A DNA stretch of 64,000 bases from an uncultured Cohaesibacter sp. (GTDB taxonomy: Bacteria; Pseudomonadota; Alphaproteobacteria; Rhizobiales; Cohaesibacteraceae): assembly GCF_963678225.1 (NCBI RefSeq), contig NZ_OY782764.1, positions 340,001 to 404,000 on the forward strand, in the 5' to 3' direction. Numbering within the stretch: position 1 is the first letter of the stretch; every line of letters starts with the position of its first letter. Made by a program: the position numbers and the translations under genes. Shown piece after piece: positions 11,054-23,746 of the stretch. The notes under the pieces are model-generated. The model was not told where the DNA came from. It worked only from the letters and a program-made list of their open reading frames with translations, and did not search any database.

Positions 11054-11074
11054 AAATGGTGACCCCGGCGCGAT
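11054..11074. repeat. attL-type repeat, displaced tRNA-Arg 3' end
   Basis: This 21-bp stretch is identical to 23667-23687. It covers the encoded CCA end, the acceptor 3' strand and part of the T arm of tRNA-Arg read on the minus strand. Nothing else of the tRNA is present here, so it marks the far junction. Confidence 0.9.
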
Positions 11075-11144
11075 GGATACCCCACCCCAAGATACCATCG
11101 TAAATAATTGAAATATATATTATATTATATAAGTCGTAACAATT

Positions 11145-11170
11145 GCTTCGTACCACGTTTTCGTACCACG
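11145..11170. repeat. Left integrase arm-type repeat pair
   Basis: Two copies of TCGTACCACG start at 11148 and 11161, 13 bp apart. A block matching at 24 of 26 positions lies at 23594-23619 near the other end. Paired short repeats flanking the core are typical arm sites of tyrosine integrases. Confidence 0.65.
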
Positions 11171-11335
11171 CATTGGGTCTTTACAGCTCACTTAAACAGA
11201 CATTAAAAACGCATTTTGTAAAGGCCCATCAATACTCCCCCCCTAATTTCACGTGAATTGTCGCGAAAATCTTCCAGTGAACGGAGTTGCTAGTGTATGC
11301 TCTTATAGATTCAATTTAAAAGAGCATGGAACGAT

Positions 11336-12379
11336 ATGGAAATTTTGGAACTTGAGGATCCGGAGAAAGTCGCACGACTGCTTGAGCGTCACATTCAGTC
11401 CGCTCATCTCAATTTTCTGTTCGGCTCTGGCGCATCGATACCTGCGATCCAACTTGCTGGGGATGTAGAACAGGAAATCGATCAGCACCTGACAGCCTCA
11501 GAGCTTGATGAGGCAAACAAAAAAGCCCTGACGTTTATCGAAGAACTGGAATACCAACATGGGTTCCTGCCCGCAGGATATACAGAAGGCGACGATACTG
11601 ATATTACGCTCCGGAACTACATGCGTTTCTTAAGTTCTGCCGACCGTATTCTCTTTGAACGCAAAAACATCCTTTTGCCCCGCCAAGCCAACGTTTTCAC
11701 AACGAACTACGATGAGTTTTTCGAGGTTGCGGCATCACTCCTTCCTTCATTGGTTCTAAATGACGGCTTCAATCGACGAGTAGGCAACTCAGGTTTTGAG
11801 TACTCACCGGAGCTGTTTTTCGACAGAGTGTACAGGTCGGGCGCGGTGTACAAGCATCAATCTGAAATACCTTCAATGAATCTAATTAAAGTGCATGGAT
11901 CGATCTCTTGGAAACGTCAGAGCGACGACAGGATCACGCTAGGTGAGCCGGAAAAAGATCAACTCACAACACTCCAAAAAGATAGCCGCTTCGAGGTCAA
12001 CAATGCACTTGCAAAGCGAGCTGTGATCTTGCCCAACATGCGGAAATTCGAGTCCACACTATTAGATCGAGTATATTTTGATCTTTTGCGTTTGTACACG
12101 AATGCAATGGAGATGGAAAACGCGTTACTCTTCGTTTTCGGCTTCTCATTTGCTGACAAGCATATTCTCGACATTACCCGACGAGCACTGCGCAACCCCA
12201 CCGCAAAGATTGTGATATTTGCATTTAGTCAGAACGACGTCGGCAACTTTGAAGAAAAATTCTCAGCCCACCGGAATGCTCTGATAATCAAACCAAAAGA
12301 GGGCCAGCACATAGGATTTCCAGAACTCAATTCGCTTTTCGAAATGATCGCTATTACCTCAGAGAAAATCCATGACTGA
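11336..12379 (+). CDS. SIR2-like NADase of a SIR2-HerA defence pair
   Basis: A 347-residue protein with the SIR2 Rossmann-like fold. Visible motifs are the nucleotide-binding GSGAS at 30-34, TTNYDEF at 122-128, the His of KVHGS at H187 and GFSFADKHI near 265-273. Such SIR2 proteins in defence systems degrade NAD+ rather than deacetylate. The stop overlaps the start of the HerA gene by 8 bp, so the two are translationally coupled. The pair matches the known SIR2-HerA (Nezha) anti-phage system, in which SIR2 and HerA form a large complex. Composition is AT-richer than the chromosomal flanks. A weak AACG precedes the ATG. Confidence 0.88.
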   Translation: MEILELEDPEKVARLLERHIQSAHLNFLFGSGASIPAIQLAGDVEQEIDQHLTASELDEANKKALTFIEELEYQHGFLPAGYTEGDDTDITLRNYMRFLSSADRILFERKNILLPRQANVFTTNYDEFFEVAASLLPSLVLNDGFNRRVGNSGFEYSPELFFDRVYRSGAVYKHQSEIPSMNLIKVHGSISWKRQSDDRITLGEPEKDQLTTLQKDSRFEVNNALAKRAVILPNMRKFESTLLDRVYFDLLRLYTNAMEMENALLFVFGFSFADKHILDITRRALRNPTAKIVIFAFSQNDVGNFEEKFSAHRNALIIKPKEGQHIGFPELNSLFEMIAITSEKIHD

Positions 12380-14231
12380 TGCCCGCCTTCAGCAGGAAGC
12401 TGTACTCAGAGTTGGTGAAGTGGCAGAGGTAACAGGTCGCAAAATTTCAGTAACAGTGGACAAGGAAAAGAACCTGTCTGAACTCTTCTTTGAAGGAGAC
12501 CTAATCCGCAATGTCGCTGTGGGCAGCTATATTGATATTCGTAAAGGTTTTGTCAGTCTCATCGGAAAGGTCGATGGTGAATACGCTCGCCCCGACACGA
12601 TCTACGTCTCAGAAGCCGGCATGGTGCCTAATTCAAAGCGATCACTTTCAATTACTCTAGTAGGCTACATAGACCGTTCCGGGACATTCTATGGGGGCAC
12701 CAAAGAGCTACCATTGATCGGCAACGAAGCCTATTTGCTCACCAGTGAGAAAGTTCATCAAATCCATAACCTTGTCTCGAAAGATGCGATACCTATGAAT
12801 GTCGCGGTTTCGGACTACGAGGGATTTGAGATCAGTCTTCCTGTCGACGGCTTGATGAACAGTCATATTGCTATTTTCGGTAACACAGGCAGCGGGAAAT
12901 CGAACACAGTTGCATTGTTATACCAAAGCTACATCGAAGCGATGCGGCAAAGAAATCAAGCATTGTTCGATCAACGCGTTAGAATCCTATTCTTCGATTT
13001 CAACGGGGAGTATTCTAGAGAGAACTGTCTTACCGCAAATAAAACCGTTTACAATCTAACCACTAGGCATGACCAAGGTGACAAGGTACCGTTGTCGGAA
13101 GCAGGCTTTCTAGACTTTGAAACTCTCGCAATACTTTCGGATGCGACCGAGAAAACCCAACGACCTTTTATTCGACGAGCCTTAGGCTTAGCAAATAGAA
13201 TTGGACAAGGTGAAGATAGCCGCAACCATCTACAAAATATGCTGCGTATGCAAATTACTCAAATATTGCAGATGGCGGATAAGGAACGCGCCTTTCTACT
13301 AATTGATTACATGCGACAGATACTGCCTGAACGTATGGAAGAAGGCGCGGATGTACCTCTTGAAACTGATCTAGAATGGCATAACAACACAGCTCAATTT
13401 ATGTTCAATGGGACGTATTTGCCGTCAAATCCAAATGCGATACCAGAGACAGAAATCTATCAGCGCGTTGATGGGTACAGTTTTGCGCATGATATAATTG
13501 TTGATTTTATATCTATTTGCTACGTGCAACTGATTTGGGACGTACTCAACAACCGCGCTCAAAACGAACACATTGCTCCAGCGATCAACAAGTTGAAGAG
13601 CAAACAGAATGACATCCGAAAGGTTTTTGACCCTCAAAACACAGGAGATATTTTCACCAGCAATGTTGTTGTCTTGAACTTGCATGACGTAAGCATAGAA
13701 ATGAAGAAAACGCTTCCGCTTTTGATTTCAAAGCGCGTCTATCAGGAACAAAAAGATCGCGCGGACACGGACACGGCATTGAGCATCGTTATTGATGAGG
13801 CTCACAATATTCTTTCATACGAGTCGTCCCGAGAAGCAGAAAGCTGGAAGGACTATAGGTTAGAAACTTTCGAAGAGATCATCAAAGAAGGCAGAAAGTT
13901 TGGGGTATTTGTAACTGTCTCGAGTCAACGACCAAGCGACATATCCCAAACGATCACTTCCCAAGCCCACAACTACTTTATTCACCGGCTAATAAATCAC
14001 CGTGATCTACAATCAATAGCTACTGCCGTATCCTACATCGACAAGATCACGGAGGAGTCGATCCCAACTCTGCCAACCGGAACTTGCATATTTAGCGGGA
14101 TGGCGGGCCAGATGCCCATGAAGCTGGCTATGAGACCTTTACCCGATATGCAACAGCCTAAGAGCACGACACGGAAGTTGTCTAGCATTGTGCCCTCGGC
14201 AGAGGCTGATGGAGTAGAGCAAGAGATTTAA
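12372..14231 (+). CDS. herA: HerA-like ATPase/helicase of a SIR2-HerA defence pair
   Basis: A 619-residue FtsK/HerA-type ATPase. An N-terminal beta-rich HAS-barrel region (about 10-100) precedes the ATPase core. Walker A is GNTGSGKS at 170-177 and is followed by FFDFNGEYS. Walker B is IVIDEAH near 475-478. An SSQRPSD stretch and a C-terminal LPTGTCIFSG match HerA proteins. It forms hexamers in known systems and works with the SIR2 partner encoded immediately upstream; the start lies inside the SIR2 gene. No other HerA partner such as NurA is present. Role in sensing or processing phage DNA is from family knowledge. Confidence 0.9.
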   Translation: MTDARLQQEAVLRVGEVAEVTGRKISVTVDKEKNLSELFFEGDLIRNVAVGSYIDIRKGFVSLIGKVDGEYARPDTIYVSEAGMVPNSKRSLSITLVGYIDRSGTFYGGTKELPLIGNEAYLLTSEKVHQIHNLVSKDAIPMNVAVSDYEGFEISLPVDGLMNSHIAIFGNTGSGKSNTVALLYQSYIEAMRQRNQALFDQRVRILFFDFNGEYSRENCLTANKTVYNLTTRHDQGDKVPLSEAGFLDFETLAILSDATEKTQRPFIRRALGLANRIGQGEDSRNHLQNMLRMQITQILQMADKERAFLLIDYMRQILPERMEEGADVPLETDLEWHNNTAQFMFNGTYLPSNPNAIPETEIYQRVDGYSFAHDIIVDFISICYVQLIWDVLNNRAQNEHIAPAINKLKSKQNDIRKVFDPQNTGDIFTSNVVVLNLHDVSIEMKKTLPLLISKRVYQEQKDRADTDTALSIVIDEAHNILSYESSREAESWKDYRLETFEEIIKEGRKFGVFVTVSSQRPSDISQTITSQAHNYFIHRLINHRDLQSIATAVSYIDKITEESIPTLPTGTCIFSGMAGQMPMKLAMRPLPDMQQPKSTTRKLSSIVPSAEADGVEQEI

Positions 14232-14480
14232 GACCTTCTCCCACCGATATTTACTGGCTTTACTTGGACCTATTTCAAGTGTTTTCTTTTGGGGAATCTT
14301 CGGCACTGCATTTGCCCTAACTCAAATTGCAACTTTAGGCTCATGAAGCTATAAAGTGGACCTCTGTTACACCGAGAAGTGCTTAAACAAACAAACCAAA
14401 GCAAACACTCGCATAGGTTGACACATCTATAATCTTTCTGCTCAAATAGATTTCATAAATATTGAGCTAGGAGTTTTAAG

Positions 14481-15842
14481 ATGGGAAACGATCAACTACC
14501 TGAATACTTGAAGCAAGGCGAAGCAGCACGACTCTTTCCCGTCCTCTCCACCACTTCGAAAGAAGGTAGAACAACGTCAATCGTCTTGGCTTGCTTATGC
14601 AAAATTGATGAATTTGGTGCTCTGCTATTGTCATCAATTGGACCAAGGATTGGCGTCCGAGCCACTATAGAGGCCTTCACAGAAGTAGTTTTTAGGAATC
14701 AAAACACTGCTATCAAAGACCGTCCCGATGGCCTTATTGTTGTCCGAGTTGGTAAGCGTCAATGGCGGGCCTTGGTAGAAGCTAAAGTTGGAAATAATGA
14801 TCTCGAAGCAGATCAGATTGAGCGGTATAGATCTTTAGCAAAAGAGAACGATATTGATTGTGTGATCACTATCTCCAATCAATTTGCAACCTCACCAGAT
14901 AGCCATCCGATTGAACAGGTTCGAAAAAGCAGATCTCGAATTCCGGTTTTCCATTGGTCATGGATGCACATCTTAACAACCGCAGATCTGCTAATTTCTG
15001 GAGAACAGGTTTCTGATGTTGATCAGCTTATCCTGCTAAATGAGTTGCGCCGATTTCTCACTCACGAAAGTGCTGGTGTGAAGGGCTTCGATCGGATGCC
15101 AAAAGAATGGTCTGAACTCAACAAGCTAGTCTCTAGTGGAGGGTCCATTGGTTCCAAGTCACAAGCCGCAGGGATCGTCCTCGAGGCCTGGCACCAAGAG
15201 ACCCGCGATCTGTCTATGATCCTTAGCCGAATGACGGGCAATTTGGTGACGGAAAGCCTGCCGCGCAAACATGTGGGAGACCCAACACAAAGGCAGAAGG
15301 ACGACTTAGCACATTTGCGAGAAAGCCTGTGTCTTTGCTGCAAACTTGTAGTACCCGACGCCGCTGCTCCTATTGAAATTCGAGCCGACATAGCGAGGCG
15401 TACTTTAGATATTGGCATGACGCTAAAAGCGCCTGATGAAAAAAAATCGATTAAAGCAAGGCTAAGCTGGCTCTTGAGACAATTAAAGCCAGATAATGAC
15501 GATGGTCTATTCATTCGGCTGCTTTGGCCCGGGACGAGCGAACCCACACAGCATCCCGTTTCCGAGTTGAGAAAAGATCCCAATCTGGCGGCTGAGGGCA
15601 AAGAGCACCTAAGGCCACACAGCTTTCATATATTCTTGTCGGAAAGGCTCGGCGCAAAATTCACCCAGCAAACTAACTTTGTGTCGGAACTTGAGCGGCT
15701 TGTCCCAAAATTCTATGGTGAAACCGGTGCCCACTTGTCTGTCTGGGTCAAGAGAGCGCCTCAAATAAAGCCAGATAGAACGAGCGGGCAAGACGTGACA
15801 CCGACCGCATTGTCCGAAGACGCTGAAGATTTTGATGCCTAG
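14481..15842 (+). CDS. PD-(D/E)XK nuclease-like protein, unassigned
   Basis: A 453-residue protein. The N-terminal part carries a PD-(D/E)XK nuclease signature: D83 in RPDGLIVV, then E100 and K102 in ALVEAKV, then Q112 and Y116 in DQIERY. This is the pattern of Mrr- and RecB-like nucleases. The C-terminal 250 residues resemble nothing I can name. It has its own AGGAG ribosome site 9 bases upstream and is separated from herA by 249 bp, so it may be transcribed alone. Its place beside SIR2-HerA suggests a defence role, but that is guilt by association. It could instead be a stress-related protein. Confidence 0.6.
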   Translation: MGNDQLPEYLKQGEAARLFPVLSTTSKEGRTTSIVLACLCKIDEFGALLLSSIGPRIGVRATIEAFTEVVFRNQNTAIKDRPDGLIVVRVGKRQWRALVEAKVGNNDLEADQIERYRSLAKENDIDCVITISNQFATSPDSHPIEQVRKSRSRIPVFHWSWMHILTTADLLISGEQVSDVDQLILLNELRRFLTHESAGVKGFDRMPKEWSELNKLVSSGGSIGSKSQAAGIVLEAWHQETRDLSMILSRMTGNLVTESLPRKHVGDPTQRQKDDLAHLRESLCLCCKLVVPDAAAPIEIRADIARRTLDIGMTLKAPDEKKSIKARLSWLLRQLKPDNDDGLFIRLLWPGTSEPTQHPVSELRKDPNLAAEGKEHLRPHSFHIFLSERLGAKFTQQTNFVSELERLVPKFYGETGAHLSVWVKRAPQIKPDRTSGQDVTPTALSEDAEDFDA

Positions 15843-16302
15843 CTAGTACGCTCAGTGCTGATCTCTTTTGGGCATGACGTAATTATCTACGACCCATTTC
15901 GCTTCTAATTTGCTTTCAGGGTCTGTTGCTGCTTTGCAATTAGAAGCTTGTAACAAGTACTCCCGAGCGGGTACCTGCTTGGGACCGTTTTCAGCCTGTT
16001 ATGGCCTATTTTCCCGAAAAATTTGTGAGCCAGTATACGTATACAAATGAGTACAGAGTTCCCCCATACCCTACCCTTAGCGCTGAAATACCATCGGCTG
16101 CAGCGTGGTTGTTAATTGCAATGGTCCTGAGCTTACCCTCGATAAACGTGTCCCCTCCACATCAGCACGACCTTCGTCCTCTAGCCCTTACCTCTGCGGT
16201 CATCCACAAGTACGCCCTAAACCATGTCCTCTAGGGTTGTTTTCTGGATTCGGACATTATTCTATACGGTCATCATCCTTGTTGACACCTTGAGGCACCA
16301 TC
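15843..16302. other. Gap upstream of the resolvase with a 12-bp palindrome
   Basis: No gene with coding character is seen. The perfect palindrome GTATACGTATAC lies at 16033-16044, about 260 bp before the resolvase start. Serine resolvases often bind sites next to their own gene, so this may be a recombination or operator site. Confidence 0.4.
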
Positions 16303-16935
16303 ATGACCACTGTCTTCTACGCTCGCGTCTCCACCGCTGACCAGAACCTTGACCATCAGATCACCCAAGCAAAGCAGGCTGGCTTCGAGTTTGATGAGGT
16401 GGTCTCTGATCATGGGGTCTCAGGAGTCTCCACAAGACTCTCAGAGCGCCCTGAAGGAAAGCGACTGTTCGACATGCTCCGACATGGAGACACGCTTGTG
16501 GTACGCTGGGTGGACCGTCTGGGGCGCAACTATGATGATGTGACCGATACCATGCGCCTGTTGCTGAGGAAGGGTGTGATCATCAAGACAGTGATCAACG
16601 GCATGACCTTTGATGGCTCAACCAATGATCCGATGCAAGGGGCTGTTCGAGATGCCCTGATCGCGTTCATGGCAGCAATGGCTCAGGCAGAGACAGAGAC
16701 AAGGAAGGCAGCGCAGAAGGCAGGGATCGAAGCGGCGAAGCAGAAGGCGGACAAGTACCGAGGCAGGAAGCCCACCTACAGCAGAGAGCAGTTCAAGCTG
16801 GTTCAGGACATGCTGTCAGGGTCCTCGACCATCTCCGAGATCTCAAAGAGCACCGGCCTATCACGTCAGACCATTTACCGGATCAAGGACAAGCCCGAAG
16901 CATCCGAGAAGGCACTGACCATGTGGGGGATGTAA
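16303..16935 (+). CDS. Serine recombinase (resolvase/invertase family)
   Basis: A 210-residue small serine recombinase, the usual length for Tn3-type resolvases and DNA invertases. The catalytic region begins FYARVSTADQ with R8 and the nucleophile S10, and WVDRLGRN follows near residue 70. The long E helix lies near 120-145. A C-terminal helix-turn-helix (about 165-200, STISEISKSTGLSRQTIYRI) binds DNA. No transposase is nearby, so its role may be dimer resolution, inversion or regulation inside the element. Candidate targets are the palindrome at 16033 and the 47-bp repeats around the helicase gene. Confidence 0.9.
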   Translation: MTTVFYARVSTADQNLDHQITQAKQAGFEFDEVVSDHGVSGVSTRLSERPEGKRLFDMLRHGDTLVVRWVDRLGRNYDDVTDTMRLLLRKGVIIKTVINGMTFDGSTNDPMQGAVRDALIAFMAAMAQAETETRKAAQKAGIEAAKQKADKYRGRKPTYSREQFKLVQDMLSGSSTISEISKSTGLSRQTIYRIKDKPEASEKALTMWGM

Positions 16936-17174
16936 CCGGCCACCGATGGACCAAAGCAAGATTCCACAGGAAATATGGGGGTCTTAAACCAGCGCTTCGG
17001 CTGACCTCCATTCCGGTCTGAATGAGTCGTTCCTGCGGCTTCCACGGGTCAAAATTAGTGCCGACAGCAGCAATATATCGTTTATCGTCAATAACTTAAG
17101 GAATTTTTCTCTTGCAATAAGGACACCAAGGACTCAGCCTTGCAGCGTAATGCAACCAAACAAGGGAAAGCCTT

Positions 17175-17372
17175 ATGAACACCATCGAACAGACAGCCAT
17201 CTCCTACACCATCAAACTTGTAGACGACCAGTTTCGCCCTACCGGACACTTCGAATGCAAGAATGCCCTGAGCTGGTACGATGCGGAGGAAGAAGGGATC
17301 GCATATCTCAAAGATCACCCATCCACCTTCGACTTCATGATCATTGAGACCCCTAAGGAGATGCTGCAGTAA
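17175..17372 (+). CDS. Small acidic hypothetical protein
   Basis: A 65-residue protein with AGGGAAAG about 6 bases before its ATG. It is acidic, has no membrane segment, and contains a YDAEEEGIAYLKDHPSTFDFMI stretch that would form a helix and strand. I recognise no family. It stands alone between the resolvase and the helicase. Small soluble proteins like this are common in phage-derived islands. Confidence 0.5.
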   Translation: MNTIEQTAISYTIKLVDDQFRPTGHFECKNALSWYDAEEEGIAYLKDHPSTFDFMIIETPKEMLQ

Positions 17373-17958
17373 ACAGACGATTAGGACAGGATGGATAGCG
17401 GCTATCTGGTCGCTTCCTCCTGCTTTTTGGTCCGGTTCAATTCTATCCCACTATAGAACATCCTAAGCACTTTTTAGACTCATTTTAGTTTCTTAAAGTG
17501 CGCCACAAGACCCCACTTCAGCAGACATCCTCGGCCACCGGCCCTTAAAGTGAACCGCAAGTCAGCTTCGGCTCGCCTTCGGCTGAAGACACAATCCCAC
17601 CTATCACCACCACCTTGAAGAACCCTTCTTCCTGTCTGGTTGGGAGGGGTGGGTGTCGTTATCTCAATGTGCTCTTCAGGTTCACTCCAAGACCAGCGCT
17701 CGAAGAGCGATGGCTCCAAGTTGGGGTTCTGCTGAAGTGGCCTTGAGCCATCAACTCAAAGAATGCGTATGATAAGCTTATGTCTCTCTTATAGGGCGAT
17801 AATACGCATAACTCGACCTCCAGCCACTAACGGCCAACTGGTCCCTCCCCGACATCTCAAGATCTGAGCCAACTGGCTCTCTCAAGTTCCCCTCATAGGG
17901 AATCTTGCAGCGATTTGCTGCACTCACCTCCAGCTTTGACTGGGGGATCTCACCGGAC
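17373..17958. other. Repeat-rich gap upstream of the helicase gene
   Basis: Nearly 600 bases without a convincing gene but dense in repeats. CTTAAAGTGNNCCNCAAG occurs twice in direct orientation at 17492-17509 and 17544-17561. CCACTTCAGCAGA at 17513-17525 recurs inverted at 17728-17740. The first copy of the 47-bp palindrome lies at 17763-17809. A variant of its core (CTCATAGGGAAT) lies near 17891-17902. The layout would suit a replication origin, a recombination site or an operator region. Confidence 0.5.
17763..17809. repeat. 47-bp interrupted palindrome, copy 1 (upstream of helicase)
   Basis: ATGCGTAT at 17763-17770 and ATACGCAT at 17802-17809 flank a 31-bp spacer holding CTTATAGGGC. A second copy of exactly the same length lies downstream of the helicase gene at 19977-20023. 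The two agree at 33 of 47 positions, mainly in both ends and the right half. Confidence 0.75.
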
Positions 17959-19905
17959 ATGGAAAGGCCCATGATGGTCACCCCAATCCAAACTTCAACC
18001 TCCAACGTCATCGTTGATCCTGACTTCTTCATCTCCAAGATGGAGGACCATTGGGTCAACAAGCTCAACAACACCTCAAGCCAGCCCCTCAAGGATCTCT
18101 GGCGACAGATGTGTCTCACCTTCAACGAACAGATCAGCAGCTTTGGCAAGCCGGAAGGCCAGAGGATCAAGGTCCTCCCACCCCAAACCGGAACAGGCAA
18201 AAGCCAAGGGCTCGCTGTCTACTGTAGCTGTCTCTCAGAAGAAGATCATCTCGGCGTCTTAATCGTCGTTCGCCTCAAGGAACAAGCCAACGACACAGCC
18301 GACACGATCAACAAACTGGCAGGAAAGACAATCGCCTTAGCGCGTCACACAGACACCTCTGTTACCCAAGAGGAGCTTGAGCAGTCCCCTGTCGTCATTA
18401 TCACCCACAAGGCATATGAGAATGGTCTCGATGCCGTTGCAAGAGGAGAACCAGAGCAATCAGCATGGTCCCAGTATCACACATTCAGAGACGGTCAGCG
18501 TCAGCTTGTCGTCATCGACGAGGCCCTCGACCTCCTTCAGGAATCCAAGGTTAGCCTTGATCAGGTCAGATACCTTCACGCCTCCCTGTCCAACAAGAAC
18601 AGCCCTGAAGAGGCTTCCGCCTTGGAGACCCTCGGTCACTTTATGACCATCTATGAAGCTCTGACAGAAGCCCATCCAGAAGGACGGGAGATGGTTGTTA
18701 GTCAGAACGACCTGAAGACCCTTGATCCGGCCAGCCTGACCATTCTCCGACAATCCCTTAAGTCGAAGCGTCTCGACAAGGCTATGCTGGGCCGAGATGA
18801 CAAGAAGCAGAACCGACAGCTCATCCAGCTCTATTCCGAGGTCCTCAAGTCCGTTCAGGCACTCATGGCGTCTTGGCGGATCTACGGCACCAAAGGAGAC
18901 CAGTACTGGCTATCAACAGCCAAGCTGATCCTGCCAGACGAAGGCTGTGGGGCTGTCATCCTTGATGCAACAGCCAACGAGAATGTCCTCTACAGTCTGC
19001 TCCCTAACAGAGTCGATCCACCCGTCAAGCTGCCTTCCAATGCCCGCTCCTACGCCAATGTGACCTTGCACGTCTCGACAGGCCACCGACTGGGCAAGAA
19101 CTATCTGGAAGACAATGCCAAGAAGGAAGTGGCCTCCCTCATGGGCGACCTCAAGGAAAGCGGATTGATGAACAGGAAGGTTCTGATCTGTTGTCACAAG
19201 TCGGTCGAGCCGGTCATCAAACTCTATGAGCACCACTTCAAGGCGCTTGGCGTCGCCCATTGGGGCGCTATTGATGGTCGCAATGACTGGTCTGACTATG
19301 ACTGTGTCGTGATCTTCGGCCTGCCATATCGGGATGACTTCTACTCGGCCAACCTCTTCTTTGCTGCCCAAGGCCCTCAGTCAACTGACTGGCTGAGACA
19401 GCAGGATCAGAGGAAGTGGCAGGACTTCAAGGATGTTCGGCATTCGATCAAGGTCAGCAACCTGTCGACCTCGGTCATTCAGGGGATCAACCGTGTCCGT
19501 TGTCGTCGTGTCGTCGATAGTCTTGGCAACTGTGCGTCCACCGATGTCTACCTTCTGCTTCCCTCGGACCAGACAGGACGAATGCTGCTCAAGGACATCA
19601 AGGACCATATGCCAGGCATCGTCTCCACTTCATGGAAGCTGAAAGCGGCTCGTCGTGCACCCAAGACCTCGAACCATCTTGAAGCTTTCCTGACCTGTCT
19701 GGCCAACATGCCTGCTGGCAGGAAGTCCTTCAGTGACATCAAGCAGCAGCTTGGACTTGATCGCTCAAAGTCTGACTTCATCCGAAGGAAACTGTCAAAT
19801 CCTCCTGAAGGCTTCATGGATCGCCTCAAGATCCATCAGGTGTCCTACGAGGCGACAGGGGTCAAACGGGGGTCTCAGATCTGGTTCGAGAAGGTCCCTG
19901 CCTGA
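17959..19905 (+). CDS. SF2 helicase-like protein of the mobile element
   Basis: A protein of about 648 residues with superfamily 2 helicase motifs: P-loop QTGTGKS, Walker B VIDEAL, motif III-like ILDATAN and motif VI-like QGINRVRCRR. The last 80 residues look like a winged helix (DIKQQLGLDRSKSDFIRRKL). This suggests DNA unwinding in element replication or control, as in phage and satellite helicases. The start is uncertain: ATG codons at 17959, 17971 and 17974 are in frame, and GGAAAGG gives 17974 the best-spaced ribosome site. A TTG at 17905 is also possible. It is bracketed by the two 47-bp palindromes. Confidence 0.75.
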   Translation: MERPMMVTPIQTSTSNVIVDPDFFISKMEDHWVNKLNNTSSQPLKDLWRQMCLTFNEQISSFGKPEGQRIKVLPPQTGTGKSQGLAVYCSCLSEEDHLGVLIVVRLKEQANDTADTINKLAGKTIALARHTDTSVTQEELEQSPVVIITHKAYENGLDAVARGEPEQSAWSQYHTFRDGQRQLVVIDEALDLLQESKVSLDQVRYLHASLSNKNSPEEASALETLGHFMTIYEALTEAHPEGREMVVSQNDLKTLDPASLTILRQSLKSKRLDKAMLGRDDKKQNRQLIQLYSEVLKSVQALMASWRIYGTKGDQYWLSTAKLILPDEGCGAVILDATANENVLYSLLPNRVDPPVKLPSNARSYANVTLHVSTGHRLGKNYLEDNAKKEVASLMGDLKESGLMNRKVLICCHKSVEPVIKLYEHHFKALGVAHWGAIDGRNDWSDYDCVVIFGLPYRDDFYSANLFFAAQGPQSTDWLRQQDQRKWQDFKDVRHSIKVSNLSTSVIQGINRVRCRRVVDSLGNCASTDVYLLLPSDQTGRMLLKDIKDHMPGIVSTSWKLKAARRAPKTSNHLEAFLTCLANMPAGRKSFSDIKQQLGLDRSKSDFIRRKLSNPPEGFMDRLKIHQVSYEATGVKRGSQIWFEKVPA

Positions 19906-19976
19906 CGACCTATCATCACAGCAACAACTCAAGGCATCGCGGGTTATCCTCGCGGTGTCCTTCAAAATCTTCCAGT

Positions 19977-20023
19977 ATGCGTATTGTCAAACTCAAGGTC
20001 CCTTATAGGGCAATCATACGCAT
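19977..20023. repeat. 47-bp interrupted palindrome, copy 2 (downstream of helicase)
   Basis: ATGCGTAT at 19977-19984 and ATACGCAT at 20016-20023, with CCCTTATAGGGC inside. It has the same length and orientation as copy 1, so the two sites bracket the helicase gene as direct repeats about 2.2 kb apart. Confidence 0.75.
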
Positions 20024-20255
20024 ATCTCGAACAACAGTTCCCAACCCACCCAGACAATAACAACAACAAGAAGAACTCACGAGACAACCGGCTTTCCCTT
20101 TCAGCCGGTCTCAACGTGAGCATGTGAGGCGCTTTGGGTGAAGCAGCAGCCTTGCATAGAGGGAATGGGAGGAGGTCGAGCGCTGAAGGGACTTCAAGAG
20201 AGCTTGAAGGTCTTGTTCGTCTTCGTGTGCTCCCTTCTCTCATTCCCAACTGTCC

Positions 20256-20310
20256 ATGTGGTGGCCGGTAGGCGTCGTTTTGTCTTCGTCTGCTCCACCA
20301 CATTTTTTTT
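20256..20310 (+). terminator. Possible terminator after the helicase gene
   Basis: ATGTGGTGG (20256-20264) pairs with CCACCACAT (20295-20303), followed by eight T at 20303-20310. The 30-base loop is long, so this is only a candidate. The rest of the 428-base gap 19906-20333 holds palindrome copy 2 and a short hairpin near 20193-20212. Confidence 0.45.
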
Positions 20311-20333
20311 GTAAAGGACTGTGAAGGGCTTCT

Positions 20334-20987
20334 TCAAGGGGTGCTCTTGGGAACAAAGATCTTTTCGTTGTGATAAGCTATGCTCTTCGATGAAATCGTA
20401 TGTCCCGCTGCGCCAGTTAGTTCTTCCACGTTGATTTCTACGCAACCGAAATCCAGCTGCGCATGATGGTTGGGGCATACAATAACAATATTTTCAGAGA
20501 CATCGGGCCCATAGTGGGGAGACCCAATCGGAATTATATGGTGCGCTTCAGCGTATGACGTTCCGTCTGGCAGCAGAATTGAAGAGTCACAAATCTGGCA
20601 CTTACTGCGATGAAGTGCCTTCACTTTTCTTGTCATAGCGGTATCACGGATAATTCTAGATGTCGTGAGACCGGATATTCTTGTTGCGTCACTCTGATCG
20701 GGGTTTGACAAATCGGACGCAAACGCTGATCTTGGAATATGTGCCCTCAGCCCCCACACTCCATTGCCAATTCCTTCAACGCTGAAGAAAAGATTACGAT
20801 TGCCGCGCCAATTGCTTGAGTCTTGGGAGTTGTACTCTAGTTCCTTCCGAACGATTGCCTCGAGAGAACTGGGAACAGACAACCTTTGCTGCATACGAAT
20901 TTTGCGCACCTCTCCGTAAACATCTTTCAGAGAAGCTGTGCCTCCAAGGTTCTGCAAGGCCATCTCTACTGTTTCATACCACGTCAT
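20334..20987 (-). CDS. HNH endonuclease with N-terminal winged helix
   Basis: A 217-residue protein. The N-terminal part (about 1-70) resembles the winged helix-turn-helix found at the front of restriction-type proteins (TWYETVEMALQNLGG). The C-terminal half is an HNH nuclease with zinc-binding CQIC, the core AEAHHIIP and the final VCPNHHAQLD. The start is placed at 20987 because GGGGAGC lies 6-7 bases upstream; the longer frame to 21026 lacks such a site. It is the only leftward gene in this part of the element apart from the integrase. Restriction of foreign DNA is likely, but homing or phage packaging roles are possible. Confidence 0.78.
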   Translation of the reverse strand: MTWYETVEMALQNLGGTASLKDVYGEVRKIRMQQRLSVPSSLEAIVRKELEYNSQDSSNWRGNRNLFFSVEGIGNGVWGLRAHIPRSAFASDLSNPDQSDATRISGLTTSRIIRDTAMTRKVKALHRSKCQICDSSILLPDGTSYAEAHHIIPIGSPHYGPDVSENIVIVCPNHHAQLDFGCVEINVEELTGAAGHTISSKSIAYHNEKIFVPKSTP

Positions 20988-21115
20988 ATCCTGCTCCCCA
21001 CCTATTTGCTGCTGCAGTTTTAACATGACAACCCTGCGTTTGCATTAGTAGACGTCCACTCTATTGCCGCACTTAAGCTGGCACACCACAGCTCCCTCCG
21101 ATCCCTTCAGGTGAC

Positions 21116-21391
21116 ATGGCGATCCCTAAGAGCAATCGATACCGCTGCCGCTGCTGCCAGTGTGGGAAGACAATTCCCTTGGATATCCCTCAGGGCGTCA
21201 TTAAGCGCACAACCTACTCCTTCAAGGGCATCAAGATGGACACACCACACGACGCTCTGGCGCTCAAGCGGGTCTACGAGGAACTCAAAGAGCACCCAAA
21301 GGCCCGTGCGCGTATGCCGAGCCTCCTACATGTCCTCGCCCAAGAGGCCCAAGTCGAAGCCGTGAAGAAGAAGAAGGAAGGGGTGTGCTGA
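21116..21391 (+). CDS. Small zinc-ribbon-like protein
   Basis: A 91-residue basic protein. Its N-terminus holds three clustered cysteines (CRCCQCGK) that could bind zinc with other residues, although no second CxxC pair is seen apart from the final Cys. The C-terminus is Lys-rich. The stop TGA overlaps the ATG of the next gene, so the two are translationally coupled. Family unknown; such proteins are common in phage and island early regions. Confidence 0.55.
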   Translation: MAIPKSNRYRCRCCQCGKTIPLDIPQGVIKRTTYSFKGIKMDTPHDALALKRVYEELKEHPKARARMPSLLHVLAQEAQVEAVKKKKEGVC

Positions 21392-21666
21392 TGGAAAGTT
21401 CAGCCACACCTCGCGACATCCTCGGCAGGGCAATCAGTCTTGATGACAAGGTCGCTGTCGCAATCCTCGGCTGGCAGTCAGGGCTCCACATCGGGACCGT
21501 CACCGGTATCAGTAAGTTCATCACGGTACTCCATGAGGACGGAACCTACAGCCAGCACTACCCCAAACAGGTCTGCGTCGTCACTGAGTGTGTCGAGCTG
21601 ATCGCAACAACAACCACACCCCCAGTCGATCCGACTAACCCAAAAGGAAACTTCATCCATGCTTAA
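21391..21666 (+). CDS. Small hypothetical protein, coupled to its neighbours
   Basis: A 91-residue protein starting at the ATG that overlaps the previous stop, with GGAAGGGG about 8 bases upstream. The middle (DKVAVAILGWQSGLHIGTVT) reads like a small beta-barrel of the kind seen in KOW or SH3 folds. I recognise no family. Its end overlaps the antirepressor start by 8 bp, making a three-gene coupled set. Confidence 0.55.
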   Translation: MESSATPRDILGRAISLDDKVAVAILGWQSGLHIGTVTGISKFITVLHEDGTYSQHYPKQVCVVTECVELIATTTTPPVDPTNPKGNFIHA

Positions 21667-22333
21667 GAAAATCGCCAACACCGCCGCCGCTGTCTCAACG
21701 TTCACCTTCGAGACAGACCCCTTGGATGTCAGTGTAGATACCGCTCATGAAATCCGTGTTGTGGAACGCGATGGTGAACCTTGGTTCGTCGCTGCGGATG
21801 TCTGCAAGGCGCTTGGGCTGATCAACGTCACTCTGGCAACACAAAATCTTTCCGACGACGAAATTCTCAAACTTAATCGGATTAAACTTGGAGCAAAACG
21901 TGGAGGAAAGCCTATGCCTTGCGTCTCCGAGTCTGGTCTCTACAAACTGGTGATGCGCTCGGACAAACCGCAGGCTAAGCCGTTCCAAGACTGGGTGACC
22001 CGTGATGTTCTCCCTGCCATCCGCAAGACCGGTGCCTACGTCAAAGGTGAAGAGGCACTGAAGCAGGGCAAGCCGCTCCCTGAAGACACCATGAAGGCCA
22101 TGGAAGATCGGCTGAACGCCAAGTTCGAGCAGCTCTTCACGATGAACCAGCAGCTCATTCAGGCCAACCATGGGCTTAAAGAGGATGTCACCCGCAAAGA
22201 GTACGTGATCGAAGAGATGCACGACAAGATGAACACCCTGTCTGAAGACAAGGCTGCTCTCGAGAGCGTCAAGGCTGAGATGGAGCCCTATTTTGGTAGA
22301 ATGACATGCTTGATGGCGTCGATGAGCTGCTGA
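21659..22333 (+). CDS. BRO-family phage antirepressor, probably truncated
   Basis: A 224-residue protein. Residues about 30-130 are a Bro-N domain (GEPWFVAADVCKALGL, then SESGLYKLVMRSDKPQAKPFQDWV and VLPAIRKTGAY), a DNA-binding domain of phage antirepressors. A coiled-coil follows (140-210). Many such proteins end in a KilAC-type domain after this coil, but here the frame ends MEPYFGRMTCLMASMSC after running 46 bp into the convergent integrase gene. That suggests the 3' end was lost in a past recombination. It may still regulate the element's lysogeny-like switch. Confidence 0.8.
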   Translation: MLKKIANTAAAVSTFTFETDPLDVSVDTAHEIRVVERDGEPWFVAADVCKALGLINVTLATQNLSDDEILKLNRIKLGAKRGGKPMPCVSESGLYKLVMRSDKPQAKPFQDWVTRDVLPAIRKTGAYVKGEEALKQGKPLPEDTMKAMEDRLNAKFEQLFTMNQQLIQANHGLKEDVTRKEYVIEEMHDKMNTLSEDKAALESVKAEMEPYFGRMTCLMASMSC

Positions 22334-23589
22334 TCTGAAGGGCCTTTGGAATATCGGTTCAGCCCTTCACCCGGCCTTGAATGCCCCATGAGCCAATCTG
22401 AGATCCATGGATTAACATCACCCTGCTCCAACAGTGTCCTAGCCCTGTGCCGCCAACTGTGGCTTGCCACAACGCTCTTGTCTTTTACGACCAATCTCAA
22501 GGTTCTCCCAAGGCGTTGAGAGAGCGTATGAGAGCGTTTGTTGTATGATCGAGCCTTAAGGGCAGGAAATAGCCAGTCCTCTCCATTCCGATCTTCAAGC
22601 CGATCCTTTAGAACTTGAACAACAGCAGGATCAACAACTGGCACCCGACGCTTACCTGCTTCCGTCTTGGCTTCCTTGATATTCACCCATACAACCTTCC
22701 CTTGATCAGTACAGTCCTCAACCTTCAGCTTTGCGGCCTCTTCCAGCCTTAAGCCGCTCACAGCAAGAAGAAGCGAAACATCGAAGTCATCAGGGAATTT
22801 CCCATGCCGTTCCTTTGTCTTCTCCAAGACGGCCTTAGCTTCCTCTTCGGTAAATGCTCGCCGCTTCTGACTGATATCCTCCGATTTCTTGGGCTTCAAA
22901 CCTTCCCATGGACTTCGTTTGTCATCCGGCAGGTAACCATTCAGCATCAGCCAGCGCCAATAACCACTGTAAGCCGCGAGCTTCTTCTGAACAGTGTCAG
23001 GCGCTCTTCCCGGAGACAGCGTGTTCCTTATGAACTCCGACGCTTTCCGCCTATCTATCTCTTCAATAATCTCAAATTCTGCAGACAGTTCCTTGAAGGC
23101 ATTCTGATACTCGCTCTTGGTTTTATCGCGTATAGACGAATCCCCTAGCCAGATCTCCACATACTGTGAAATTGGCGTTTCCACTCCCTTAGCAATGTTG
23201 TGGAACTTCAGGGCATCATCAGATGTCGCTCCCTGCTCGCGAGCCATATCAAGATCAGCAACACCTTTGAGAAAGCCTCGCTCTTCAATGTCGTAGGCTC
23301 GTTCTGCGATTCGGTCTTCAATGAAGTTCTTCTCTTGTGCTGACTTTGCATCTTTCAACATCGAACGCCAAATCGATGCCTCTGCCACGATCTCGTCAGA
23401 ACCACGAGCATTCTCAATTTGCTGCTTCCAAGTCGCGATAATCGGCCCGCACAAGGCAAGCGCCCTGCGCCTATCACTCGTTTTCAGTGACTTCATGAAC
23501 TTGGTCTTGCCGACAGTTTCTTGCAGATCCTTGGGAACATCCAAGACCGCATACCACCGCTGTCGCTTCTTCAAAAGGTAGTTTGCCAT
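22288..23589 (-). CDS. int: Tyrosine-type site-specific integrase
   Basis: A 433-residue phage-type integrase. The N-terminal part (about 1-100) resembles the arm-binding domain seen in many alphaproteobacterial integrases. A SAM-like core-binding domain follows (about 130-230). The catalytic domain shows the first Arg in SGLRLEEAAKL, SHSWRHRARTLL with the His and second Arg, GHSRPGEG and the probable nucleophile Tyr in LNRYSKG. The gene starts 78 bp from the attR core and points away from it. It should catalyse integration at, and excision from, the tRNA-Arg 3' end. Confidence 0.93.
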   Translation of the reverse strand: MANYLLKKRQRWYAVLDVPKDLQETVGKTKFMKSLKTSDRRRALALCGPIIATWKQQIENARGSDEIVAEASIWRSMLKDAKSAQEKNFIEDRIAERAYDIEERGFLKGVADLDMAREQGATSDDALKFHNIAKGVETPISQYVEIWLGDSSIRDKTKSEYQNAFKELSAEFEIIEEIDRRKASEFIRNTLSPGRAPDTVQKKLAAYSGYWRWLMLNGYLPDDKRSPWEGLKPKKSEDISQKRRAFTEEEAKAVLEKTKERHGKFPDDFDVSLLLAVSGLRLEEAAKLKVEDCTDQGKVVWVNIKEAKTEAGKRRVPVVDPAVVQVLKDRLEDRNGEDWLFPALKARSYNKRSHTLSQRLGRTLRLVVKDKSVVASHSWRHRARTLLEQGDVNPWISDWLMGHSRPGEGLNRYSKGPSDQQLIDAIKHVILPK

Positions 23590-23593
23590 GGGT

Positions 23594-23619
23594 GCTTCGT
23601 ACCACGTTTCCGTACCACA
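23594..23619. repeat. Right integrase arm-type repeat pair
   Basis: CGTACCAC occurs twice in this 26-bp block. It matches the block at 11145-11170 at 24 of 26 positions and in the same orientation. It lies between the integrase start and the core repeat. In the excised circle the two blocks would flank the core at about 47 and 70 bp. Confidence 0.65.
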
Positions 23620-23666
23620 TTGAAGCCATAACCCATTGAAATATTGATTTTATTGAAGAAATCAGG

Positions 23667-23687
23667 AAATGGTGACCCCGGCGCGAT
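23667..23687. repeat. attR-type repeat inside tRNA-Arg
   Basis: Identical over 21 bp to 11054-11074. It overlaps the 3' end of the tRNA, so the element restores a functional tRNA on integration. Confidence 0.9.
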
Positions 23688-23746
23688 TCGAACGCACGAC
23701 CTACCGCTTAGGAGGCGGTTGCTCTATCCAGCTGAGCTACGGGGCC
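23670..23746 (-). tRNA. tRNA-Arg(CCT)
   Basis: Read on the minus strand, 77 bases fold as a tRNA. The acceptor GGCCCCG pairs with CGGGGTC (one G-U pair). The anticodon loop is CTCCTAA with anticodon CCT. The T arm is GTGCG-TTCGAAT-CGCGC, and the CCA end is encoded. This decodes the Arg codon AGG. Its 3' part is the attachment site of the element. Confidence 0.95.

Follow-up and report, generated by a model that had tools for sequence, protein, structure and literature searches.

A probable genomic island with predicted anti-phage cargo at tRNA-Arg(CCT) of an uncultured Cohaesibacter and its helicase-marked relatives

Integrase-only defence islands of Escherichia coli combine an integrase with diverse defence systems and carry no other known mobility genes; in the excerpted text of the report describing them (Hochhauser et al. 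2023; PMC10121019), the authors consider that they may be yet uncharacterised satellite-type elements, with their mobilisation unclear and their movement an open question. Two other kinds of island come close, namely the P4-like satellites, which integrate at tRNA genes (same excerpt of PMC10121019) and, according to the excerpt of PMC9122126, hold a hotspot of interchangeable anti-phage systems, and the GInts, site-specific islands with direct repeats and variable cargo that are defined, in the portion of PMC5385486 available, by a ginABCD operon with three integrases. Here, we describe an element at positions 11054-23687 of a 64,000-nucleotide stretch from an uncultured Cohaesibacter sp. (contig NZ_OY782764.1; the whole stretch is called the window below). 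Two attachment (att) sites, an empty site in relatives and an intact integrase gene support the reading that this is a non-conjugative, capsid-less integrative element (genomic island), inserted site-specifically at the 3' end of tRNA-Arg(CCT) and carrying anti-phage cargo, which we regard as very probable.

The boundaries of the element are set by three landmarks:

11054-11074, forward strand: left attachment site (attL), a 21-bp copy of the tRNA-Arg(CCT) 3' end and exact repeat of 23667-23687
23667-23687, forward strand: right attachment site (attR) inside the tRNA 3' end, exact 21-bp repeat of attL
23670-23746, reverse strand: intact tRNA-Arg(CCT); Rfam tRNA match at 23673-23746, 100% identity to genome G013 over 80 bp

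The maximal exact match between the two ends is 21 bp long (AAATGGTGACCCCGGCGCGAT), consists of the final 18 tRNA bases plus 3 bp beyond, and recurs at a spacing of 12,613 bp. It is the sole exact repeated 21-mer across the window, where about 0.0005 such repeats would be expected by chance (by arithmetic). Within its own genome, a 101-bp tRNA query matched itself and the 21-bp left copy at 100%, while the longest of the six other matches listed reached 80% over 81 bp and one reached 96% over 28 bp. The integrase open reading frame (ORF) starts 80 bp from the tRNA 3' end, and the GC content of the element is 0.495 against 0.535 in the flanks used, with a minimum of 0.43-0.45 at the cargo end. 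The first-pass annotation of this stretch had read an intact tRNA at the right end, a copy of its 3' end 12,613 bp to the left, an integrase gene abutting the tRNA and a lack of capsid and conjugation genes. All of this is borne out, the last point in that no convincing head, portal, tail or relaxase gene was found in the element with Pfam (16 ORFs) or with PHROGs and NCBIfam (10 ORFs).

The insertion can also be seen from the relatives that lack it. Eight congeneric loci were located via the left flanking gene (8 of 13 congeners, besides the genome itself, matching that gene), all from other species and with one genome per species. When the window flanks are joined at the repeat, they align as one block to G009 (89.6% identity, 2007 columns), G002 (85.5%, 1999 columns) and G013 (79.7%, 2006 columns), and a single copy of the att core can be read base by base across the junction in each. 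In G001, G003, G006 and G011 the tRNA stands beside the same left gene and the flanks match piecewise, and in G014 the tRNA was not found within the stretch fetched, giving an unbroken site in three of the eight loci and a compatible one in seven. The continuous alignment of the joined flanks to three congeneric genomes shows that the empty site is real, in line with the expectation of the first-pass annotation that relatives without the insertion would show one uninterrupted tRNA flank. That annotation had also asked whether every related strain carries the same 12.6 kb; only two of 149 other genomes searched (G007 and G012) have a closely related integrase (about 71% identical), and the 12.6 kb is therefore not carried by every relative. 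Beyond what had been noted earlier, the cargo is, by annotation, an anti-phage SIR2-HerA pair, and the element is one member of a larger family that shares a conserved core with a helicase.

That conserved core consists of the integrase, a BRO regulator, a DinG-like helicase and a serine recombinase, and the contents of the slot beside it vary between siblings. Its genes and sites are:

11054-11176: conserved left end, 91-92% identical in siblings; DNA matches to three sibling left ends stop at 11170-11176
11144-11170, forward strand: two tandem TTCGTACCACG copies, probable integrase arm-type sites; a similar tandem motif occurs near the right end and in the siblings whose sequence was printed
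16009-16302, forward strand: conserved stretch preceding the serine recombinase gene, candidate for both a res site and the right-hand limit of the cargo slot
16303-16935, forward strand: serine recombinase (resolvase/invertase family), 210 amino acids (aa); Pfam Resolvase 4.3e-28 and HTH_7, PHROG DNA invertase
17953-19905, forward strand: DinG/XPD-fold superfamily 2 (SF2) helicase, 650 aa, extended at the C terminus by an additional region; the gene that marks the family
21659-22333, forward strand: BRO-N/Ant antirepressor-type regulator, 224 aa; Bro-N 1.2e-23, PHROG anti-repressor 7.4e-45; 50% identical in G012
22288-23589, reverse strand: tyrosine integrase with DUF6538 N-terminal domain, 433 aa; 71% identical beside the same tRNA in G007 and G012
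23593-23619, forward strand: second tandem arm-type motif pair, CGTACCAC twice

The integrase retains the full recombinase motif set R281, H377, R380, H403 and Y413 (full-length numbering), residues that we take to hold their usual roles, and the serine recombinase has both its catalytic and its helix-turn-helix domain (Pfam). The helix-turn-helix also draws a terminase small subunit match (1.4e-4), far weaker than that to the resolvase/invertase family. In the window element, and likewise in the siblings printed, paired motifs containing CGTACCAC are found inside each end; they probably represent integrase arm sites. Within the region upstream of the recombinase, GAGCCAGTATACGTATA occupies 16027-16043 and TGTCC...GGACAT spans 16225-16257.

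The siblings at the same tRNA define the cargo slot. The element of G012 (locus L085) measures 9,657 bp, and its proteins are 71% (integrase), 50% (BRO), 76% (helicase) and 96% (serine recombinase, 95.7% in amino acids) identical to those of the window. In G007, contig C1 holds the tRNA, integrase and BRO gene, and contig C12 the helicase, a serine recombinase, type I restriction genes and attL, the two contigs probably being one element split in assembly; contig C3 carries another left end in the same genome. At the left border, matches to the window end at 11176 in G012 and at 11170 in both G007-C12 and G007-C3, and at the right border they restart at 16017 in G012, 16009 in G007-C3 and 16016 in G007-C8, whose left end was not seen. 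Both borders are thus visible in two siblings, G012 and G007-C3; there, other cargo takes the place of the stretch from about 11177 to 16008, adjoining the conserved sequence that precedes the recombinase gene. The slot holds SIR2-HerA and a nuclease in the window, an OLD/Gabija-like ATPase in G012 and a different OLD-like ATPase in G007-C3; G007-C8 has two ORFs beyond the recombinase without a PADLOC match. The latter locus lies beside tRNA-Phe, with no integrase match and no repeat established. In G007-C3 (L088, 3569-6260), the OLD-like ATPase and the conserved upstream region are followed by the first 30 codons of the recombinase only, and then by other DNA.

Two ideas about the recombinase were set aside. 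At first glance, the 95.7% identity of the recombinase against 71-76% for integrase and helicase suggests a recently swapped cassette, but in DNA the recombinase block reaches 82% against 75% for the helicase block, indicating that strong protein constraint explains most of the recombinase identity. Inversion or excision of the cargo between two sites inside one element found no support, as GAGCCAGTATACGTATA occurs once in the window with up to three mismatches allowed, and the shorter exact pattern is present at four places in 18 congeneric genomes, one in each of four elements only. Two observations concern the attachment sequence itself. On the outer side of attL in the G012 element, 171 bp that end with the attL core share 78% identity with the window integrase start and attR region, a relic of another insertion at the same tRNA. 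In G016 (contig C14, L030, 2784-2848), 65 bp of the element left end recur at 83% identity next to an integrase of another kind (27% identical), and may belong to a further type of element that uses this attachment sequence.

The cargo of the window element and its second variable slot comprise:

11336-12379, forward strand: SIR2-family NADase-like gene, 347 aa; PADLOC SIR2 1.3e-110, Pfam SIR2_2
12372-14231, forward strand: HerA-family ATPase, 619 aa; PADLOC HerA 1.6e-194, DUF87, Walker motifs
14481-15842, forward strand: predicted PD-(D/E)XK nuclease, 453 aa; weak Pfam PDDEXK_4 match (E 0.06)
20334-21026, reverse strand: HNH endonuclease gene, 230 aa, second variable slot; Pfam HNH_2 1.7e-5, PADLOC mREase_IV 1.3e-7

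The adjacent SIR2 and HerA genes overlap by 8 bp and have intact motifs; those of SIR2 (GSGAS, TTNYD and HGS) we take to be catalytic. Their anti-phage role is predicted at the level of annotation. HerA draws misleading names (terminase large subunit at 1.9e-14, head morphogenesis, TrwB, FtsK, VirB4), and is far better matched as HerA. In the 453-aa protein, D83 and E100xK102 are invariant across all nine aligned sequences; PDB sequence searches with it gave nothing useful. It is matched in 26 of 397 genomes of the order, its own included. A role as third SIR2-HerA component found no support, given that the other window genes had no match near its homologues at nine other loci inspected (flanks of up to about 1.5 kb each), and with no SIR2-HerA match beside it there it is possibly a stand-alone defence nuclease. 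The HNH protein weakly resembles phosphorothioate-dependent and methyl-directed restriction enzymes (NCBIfam phosphorothioate-DNA restriction match at 1.9e-6, below the cut-off), and its gene found no match among the loci of nine relatives searched.

The remaining ORFs between the core genes are small:

17175-17372, forward strand: 65-aa ORF, 49% identical to a G012 ORF; no family match (Pfam, PADLOC, PHROGs, NCBIfam)
21116-21391, forward strand: 91-aa ORF, no confident family match (same four collections)
21385-21666, forward strand: 93-aa ORF, no Pfam match

Promoter and terminator scans stayed near chance level.

To place the element in a wider context, a family was collected by a helicase profile search of genome contigs and IMG/VR. 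A local curiosity without relatives, as an empty single-protein genome scan would have it, could thereby be set aside, since the profile recovered 21 genome-contig loci and two IMG/VR loci. Because the family was collected with the helicase, presence of that gene is given by construction, while the tRNA, repeats, integrase and recombinase are not. The integrase type did not serve as a marker: it is matched in 44 of 150 genomes, mostly at 22-37% identity, and the genome of the window has four further integrase matches and one helicase. Helicase hosts include Mesorhizobium, Bradyrhizobium, Hyphomicrobium, Aestuariivirga, Aquamicrobium, Tardiphaga, Lutimaribacter, Herminiimonas and Polynucleobacter. 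Elements could be delimited in Hyphomicrobiales, in Lutimaribacter (Roseobacteraceae) and in G422 (same phylum), and the helicase alone was found in Herminiimonas and Polynucleobacter. A tRNA that fits as target, judged by eye, is present at 13 of the 21 genome loci; several of the eight loci without one are cut by contig ends or have a partial helicase. Left out were the two tRNAs of L111, which has no integrase match nearby, and the tRNA-Pro of L108, 2.6 kb from the integrase, is doubtful. In total, 16 helicase loci (13 plus three held-out ones) are bounded by exact repeats that derive from the tRNA, measure 17-84 bp and lie 6.7-21.1 kb from each other; L108, L117 and L119, where contig ends intervene or the helicase match is partial, yielded no repeat. 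The spacing of the delimited elements and, where PADLOC matched, their defence cargo are:

window: 12,613 bp; SIR2-HerA
L085 (G012): 9,657 bp; OLD/Gabija-like
L098: 16,651 bp; type I restriction
L100: 13,684 bp
L101: 12,342 bp; methylase and Vsr
L103: 16,851 bp; ApeA/PDC-S58-like
L105: 6,658 bp; part of a type I restriction enzyme
L106: 16,004 bp; SIR2-HerA and PDC-M57
L107: 17,876 bp
L109: 11,881 bp
L110: 16,686 bp
L112: 21,104 bp; type I restriction and Septu-like
L114: 7,929 bp; NsnB/AriA-like ATPase
G200 (held out): 18,357 bp; tRNA-Gln, 17-bp repeat; SIR2-HerA
G422 (held out): 9,882 bp; tRNA-Gly, 24-bp repeat
G335 (held out): 17,243 bp; tRNA-Phe, 51-bp repeat

In the 13 elements delimited first, the integrase adjoins the tRNA in 12, a serine recombinase is labelled in 11, and the GC content is below that of the flanks in 12. 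The held-out search took in 397 genomes from the order and 398 from the phylum, with 11 and three hits, respectively, at E 1e-30 that partly overlap. Four loci were new (G200, G422, G335 and G223, the last a 6.1-kb contig), and the three that are informative each adjoin a tRNA and show a repeat. In G422 the order of recombinase, helicase, integrase and tRNA follows that of the window, except that BRO stands between recombinase and helicase. G200 contains a SIR2-HerA pair, and G335 is damaged, with helicase and integrase in pieces.

Defence genes recur throughout the family. With a PADLOC cut-off of E ≤ 1e-8 (0.1 for the window element), ten of the 14 elements scanned, which did not include G335 and G422, have a defence match, and the systems differ between elements. 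PADLOC matched 15 of 30 cargo proteins, compared with about 3-10 of 77 flanking ORFs of at least 300 aa, a contrast that is indicative only, as the cargo proteins were picked by the analyst. The control counts are by family: at least three ORFs match, about ten if all HerA models are taken as one protein, and 23 is the strict upper bound; the matches are mostly to mads-type models, plus one AriA. Cargo ORFs without a PADLOC match, and mostly without a Pfam match among those scanned, lie at L109:3394-7477, L110:653-3187, L132:15135-17378 and L100:14086-18619. The unmatched cargo of L100, L107, L109, L110 and L132 provides candidates for undescribed defence systems.

The signature helicase was assigned by fold. 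Structural searches returned DinG/XPD folds with helicase motifs at 10-14% identity, while PDB sequence searches with its profile gave nothing useful. DinG/XPD helicases require a four-cysteine iron-sulfur (FeS) cluster; some DinG-type relatives do without it. Here, C527 is the only cysteine invariant in 20 aligned members, in place of the four of such a cluster, and we therefore term the helicase DinG-like by fold only. In a 24-row helicase tree, the window, G012 and G007-C8 form a group with support 100/100. A fully supported four-row Bradyrhizobium clade contains delimited elements that use tRNA-Glu (L106, L107) and tRNA-His (L109). As tRNA targets differ inside this clade, target specificity seems to change faster than the helicase, as would be expected if integrases were replaced around a stable core. 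A Vampirovibrio row in the tree is, we guess, a binning error in a metagenome assembly.

Taken together, these data suggest how the element may work. The integrase would recombine the 21-bp core with the help of the paired TTCGTACCACG arm sites, both forming a circle and resolving it; the helicase may aid the replication or transfer of that circle. The serine recombinase would act at its own upstream region, resolving multimers or tandem copies, and recombination at that region could swap cargo between co-resident elements. SIR2-HerA, which is expected to work by NAD+ depletion, the PD-(D/E)XK nuclease and the HNH nuclease would protect the host from phages. Since no transfer genes were found, movement from cell to cell would probably need a helper, by phage packaging or a conjugative plasmid.

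Several findings weigh against this reading. The recombinase of G007-C12 is a different one (34% identity), for which reason matches to the window restart only at 17626, and the right cargo border is not common to all siblings. In L103, as in the held-out G200 and G335 (in the last one in pieces), the integrase sits opposite the tRNA, at the far end of the element. The serine recombinase was not detected in L112 and G335 and is only weak in L109, and the G012 element is GC-richer than its flanks (0.500 versus 0.442), unlike the other 12. The helicase unites the members only by virtue of how they were collected. As for the cargo, L100, L107, L109 and L110 have no PADLOC match among the proteins scanned (a single protein in L107), the flanking ORFs include one with a strong match to HerA (1.8e-96), and the cargo proteins scanned were mostly the larger ORFs, in a comparison with the control that was not blind. 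Because each element has a single copy of the recombinase motif, any exchange of cargo would require two elements to share a cell. Finally, excision, replication, transfer and defence are predictions from the sequence.

The question of the helper separates the main alternatives. If the element were a phage satellite, a helper phage would package the circle, and the BRO/Ant-type regulator and the helicase would serve induction and replication. The regulator, typical of temperate phages and also present in G012, G007 and the held-out G422, fits such a view, as do the tRNA target and the element sizes of 6.7-21.1 kb. So does a tail-fibre/tail-collar-like ORF in two members (L107:7888-8880 in Bradyrhizobium and L110:7019-7897 in Tardiphaga; PHROGs, ten ORFs of four members), a possible link to a helper phage. 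The helicase is also carried by two IMG/VR contigs classed as viral (L118 and L119, the latter with its integrase beside tRNA-Gln), possibly islands that were mistaken for viruses or collected along with prophages. However, the ORFs scanned in the window element included no convincing gene for packaging, capsid remodelling or a primase, and a single-sequence search of 50,697 phage records with the helicase was empty at E 1e-3, so that we see a satellite as conceivable but on the unlikely side. Slightly less likely still is an integrative mobilizable element (IME), moved in trans by a conjugative plasmid or an integrative and conjugative element (ICE) via an origin of transfer (oriT). A stand-alone integrase island without transfer genes agrees with this, and a DinG-fold helicase could act in DNA processing; yet the 16 ORFs contain no relaxase (oriT was not searched), the coupling-protein and VirB4 names are weak hits on HerA, and 72,556 plasmid records gave one weak helicase match (25% identity).

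Improbable, in our view, is that the helicase is itself an Hna-like defence gene outside the mobility core: Hna (9yhn) does appear in the Foldseek list, at rank 21, but DinG and XPD folds rank above it, PADLOC gave no match for the helicase at E 0.1, and the helicase accompanies many different cargos. Least credible of all is a decayed prophage or stranded island that is no longer mobile, for although GC falls below the flanks in the cargo region and degraded relatives exist (G335 with its helicase in pieces, G007-C8 with no integrase match), the window retains intact integrase, helicase and recombinase frames as well as intact att and arm sites, which are also conserved among the siblings, and the empty sites show insertion within the genus.

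Beyond the integrative element that we favour, a bolder version would make it a distinct class in Hyphomicrobiales and other Pseudomonadota, with a mobility core of tyrosine integrase, DinG-like helicase and serine recombinase, its own helicase-dependent replication or transfer, and defence cassettes traded at att and the serine-recombinase site when two elements meet at one attachment site. We put this forward tentatively and think it rather doubtful; if true, such an element would be a dedicated shuttle for anti-phage genes. More generally, relatives at tRNA genes of other bacteria combine the same core genes with different defence genes, which points to a common vehicle by which phage defences pass from one bacterium to another. 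The exact boundaries, empty site, signature helicase and cargo slot make predictions on excision, replication and cassette exchange testable, and the helicase can serve as a marker with which further islands of this kind, and the defence genes inside them, may be found. Among the matches listed in the open-licence literature, at the level of titles and the beginnings of abstracts, no helicase-marked family of this kind is described.

Compared with known systems, the window element differs from ICEs and IMEs in that Pfam revealed neither a relaxase nor type IV secretion among its 16 ORFs (oriT was not searched). It shares direct repeats, variable cargo and site-specific insertion with the GInts as portrayed in the excerpt of PMC5385486, but has one tyrosine integrase among the ORFs scanned instead of three. 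With P4-like satellites it has in common interchangeable anti-phage systems in one hotspot (PMC9122126, as excerpted), whereas the ORFs scanned with PHROGs and Pfam, without dedicated satellite models, gave no match to a P4 core or to the capsid interference of P4-like and phage-inducible chromosomal island (PICI) satellites. The SIR2-HerA pair resembles the anti-phage systems of the PADLOC models in its overlapping genes with catalytic and Walker motifs, and departs from them in being island cargo and in its downstream PD-(D/E)XK nuclease, whose homologues have no SIR2 or HerA match nearby in the nine other loci inspected. The helicase matches DinG/XPD helicases, including CasDinG of type IV CRISPR, in fold and helicase motifs, and differs in having 10-14% identity in the structural matches, an extra C-terminal region and one invariant cysteine in 20 aligned members. 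The closest likeness is to the integrase-only islands: the window element, too, combines an integrase and defence genes without other known mobility genes, the serine recombinase being extra, and the lineage differs from them in being marked by a DinG-like helicase and usually a serine recombinase. We read the element as one of a coherent family that falls within an already known class, the integrase-only defence islands; within the literature searched, the lineage marked by one helicase, its recurrent cargo slot and its confirmation in held-out genomes appear to be new.

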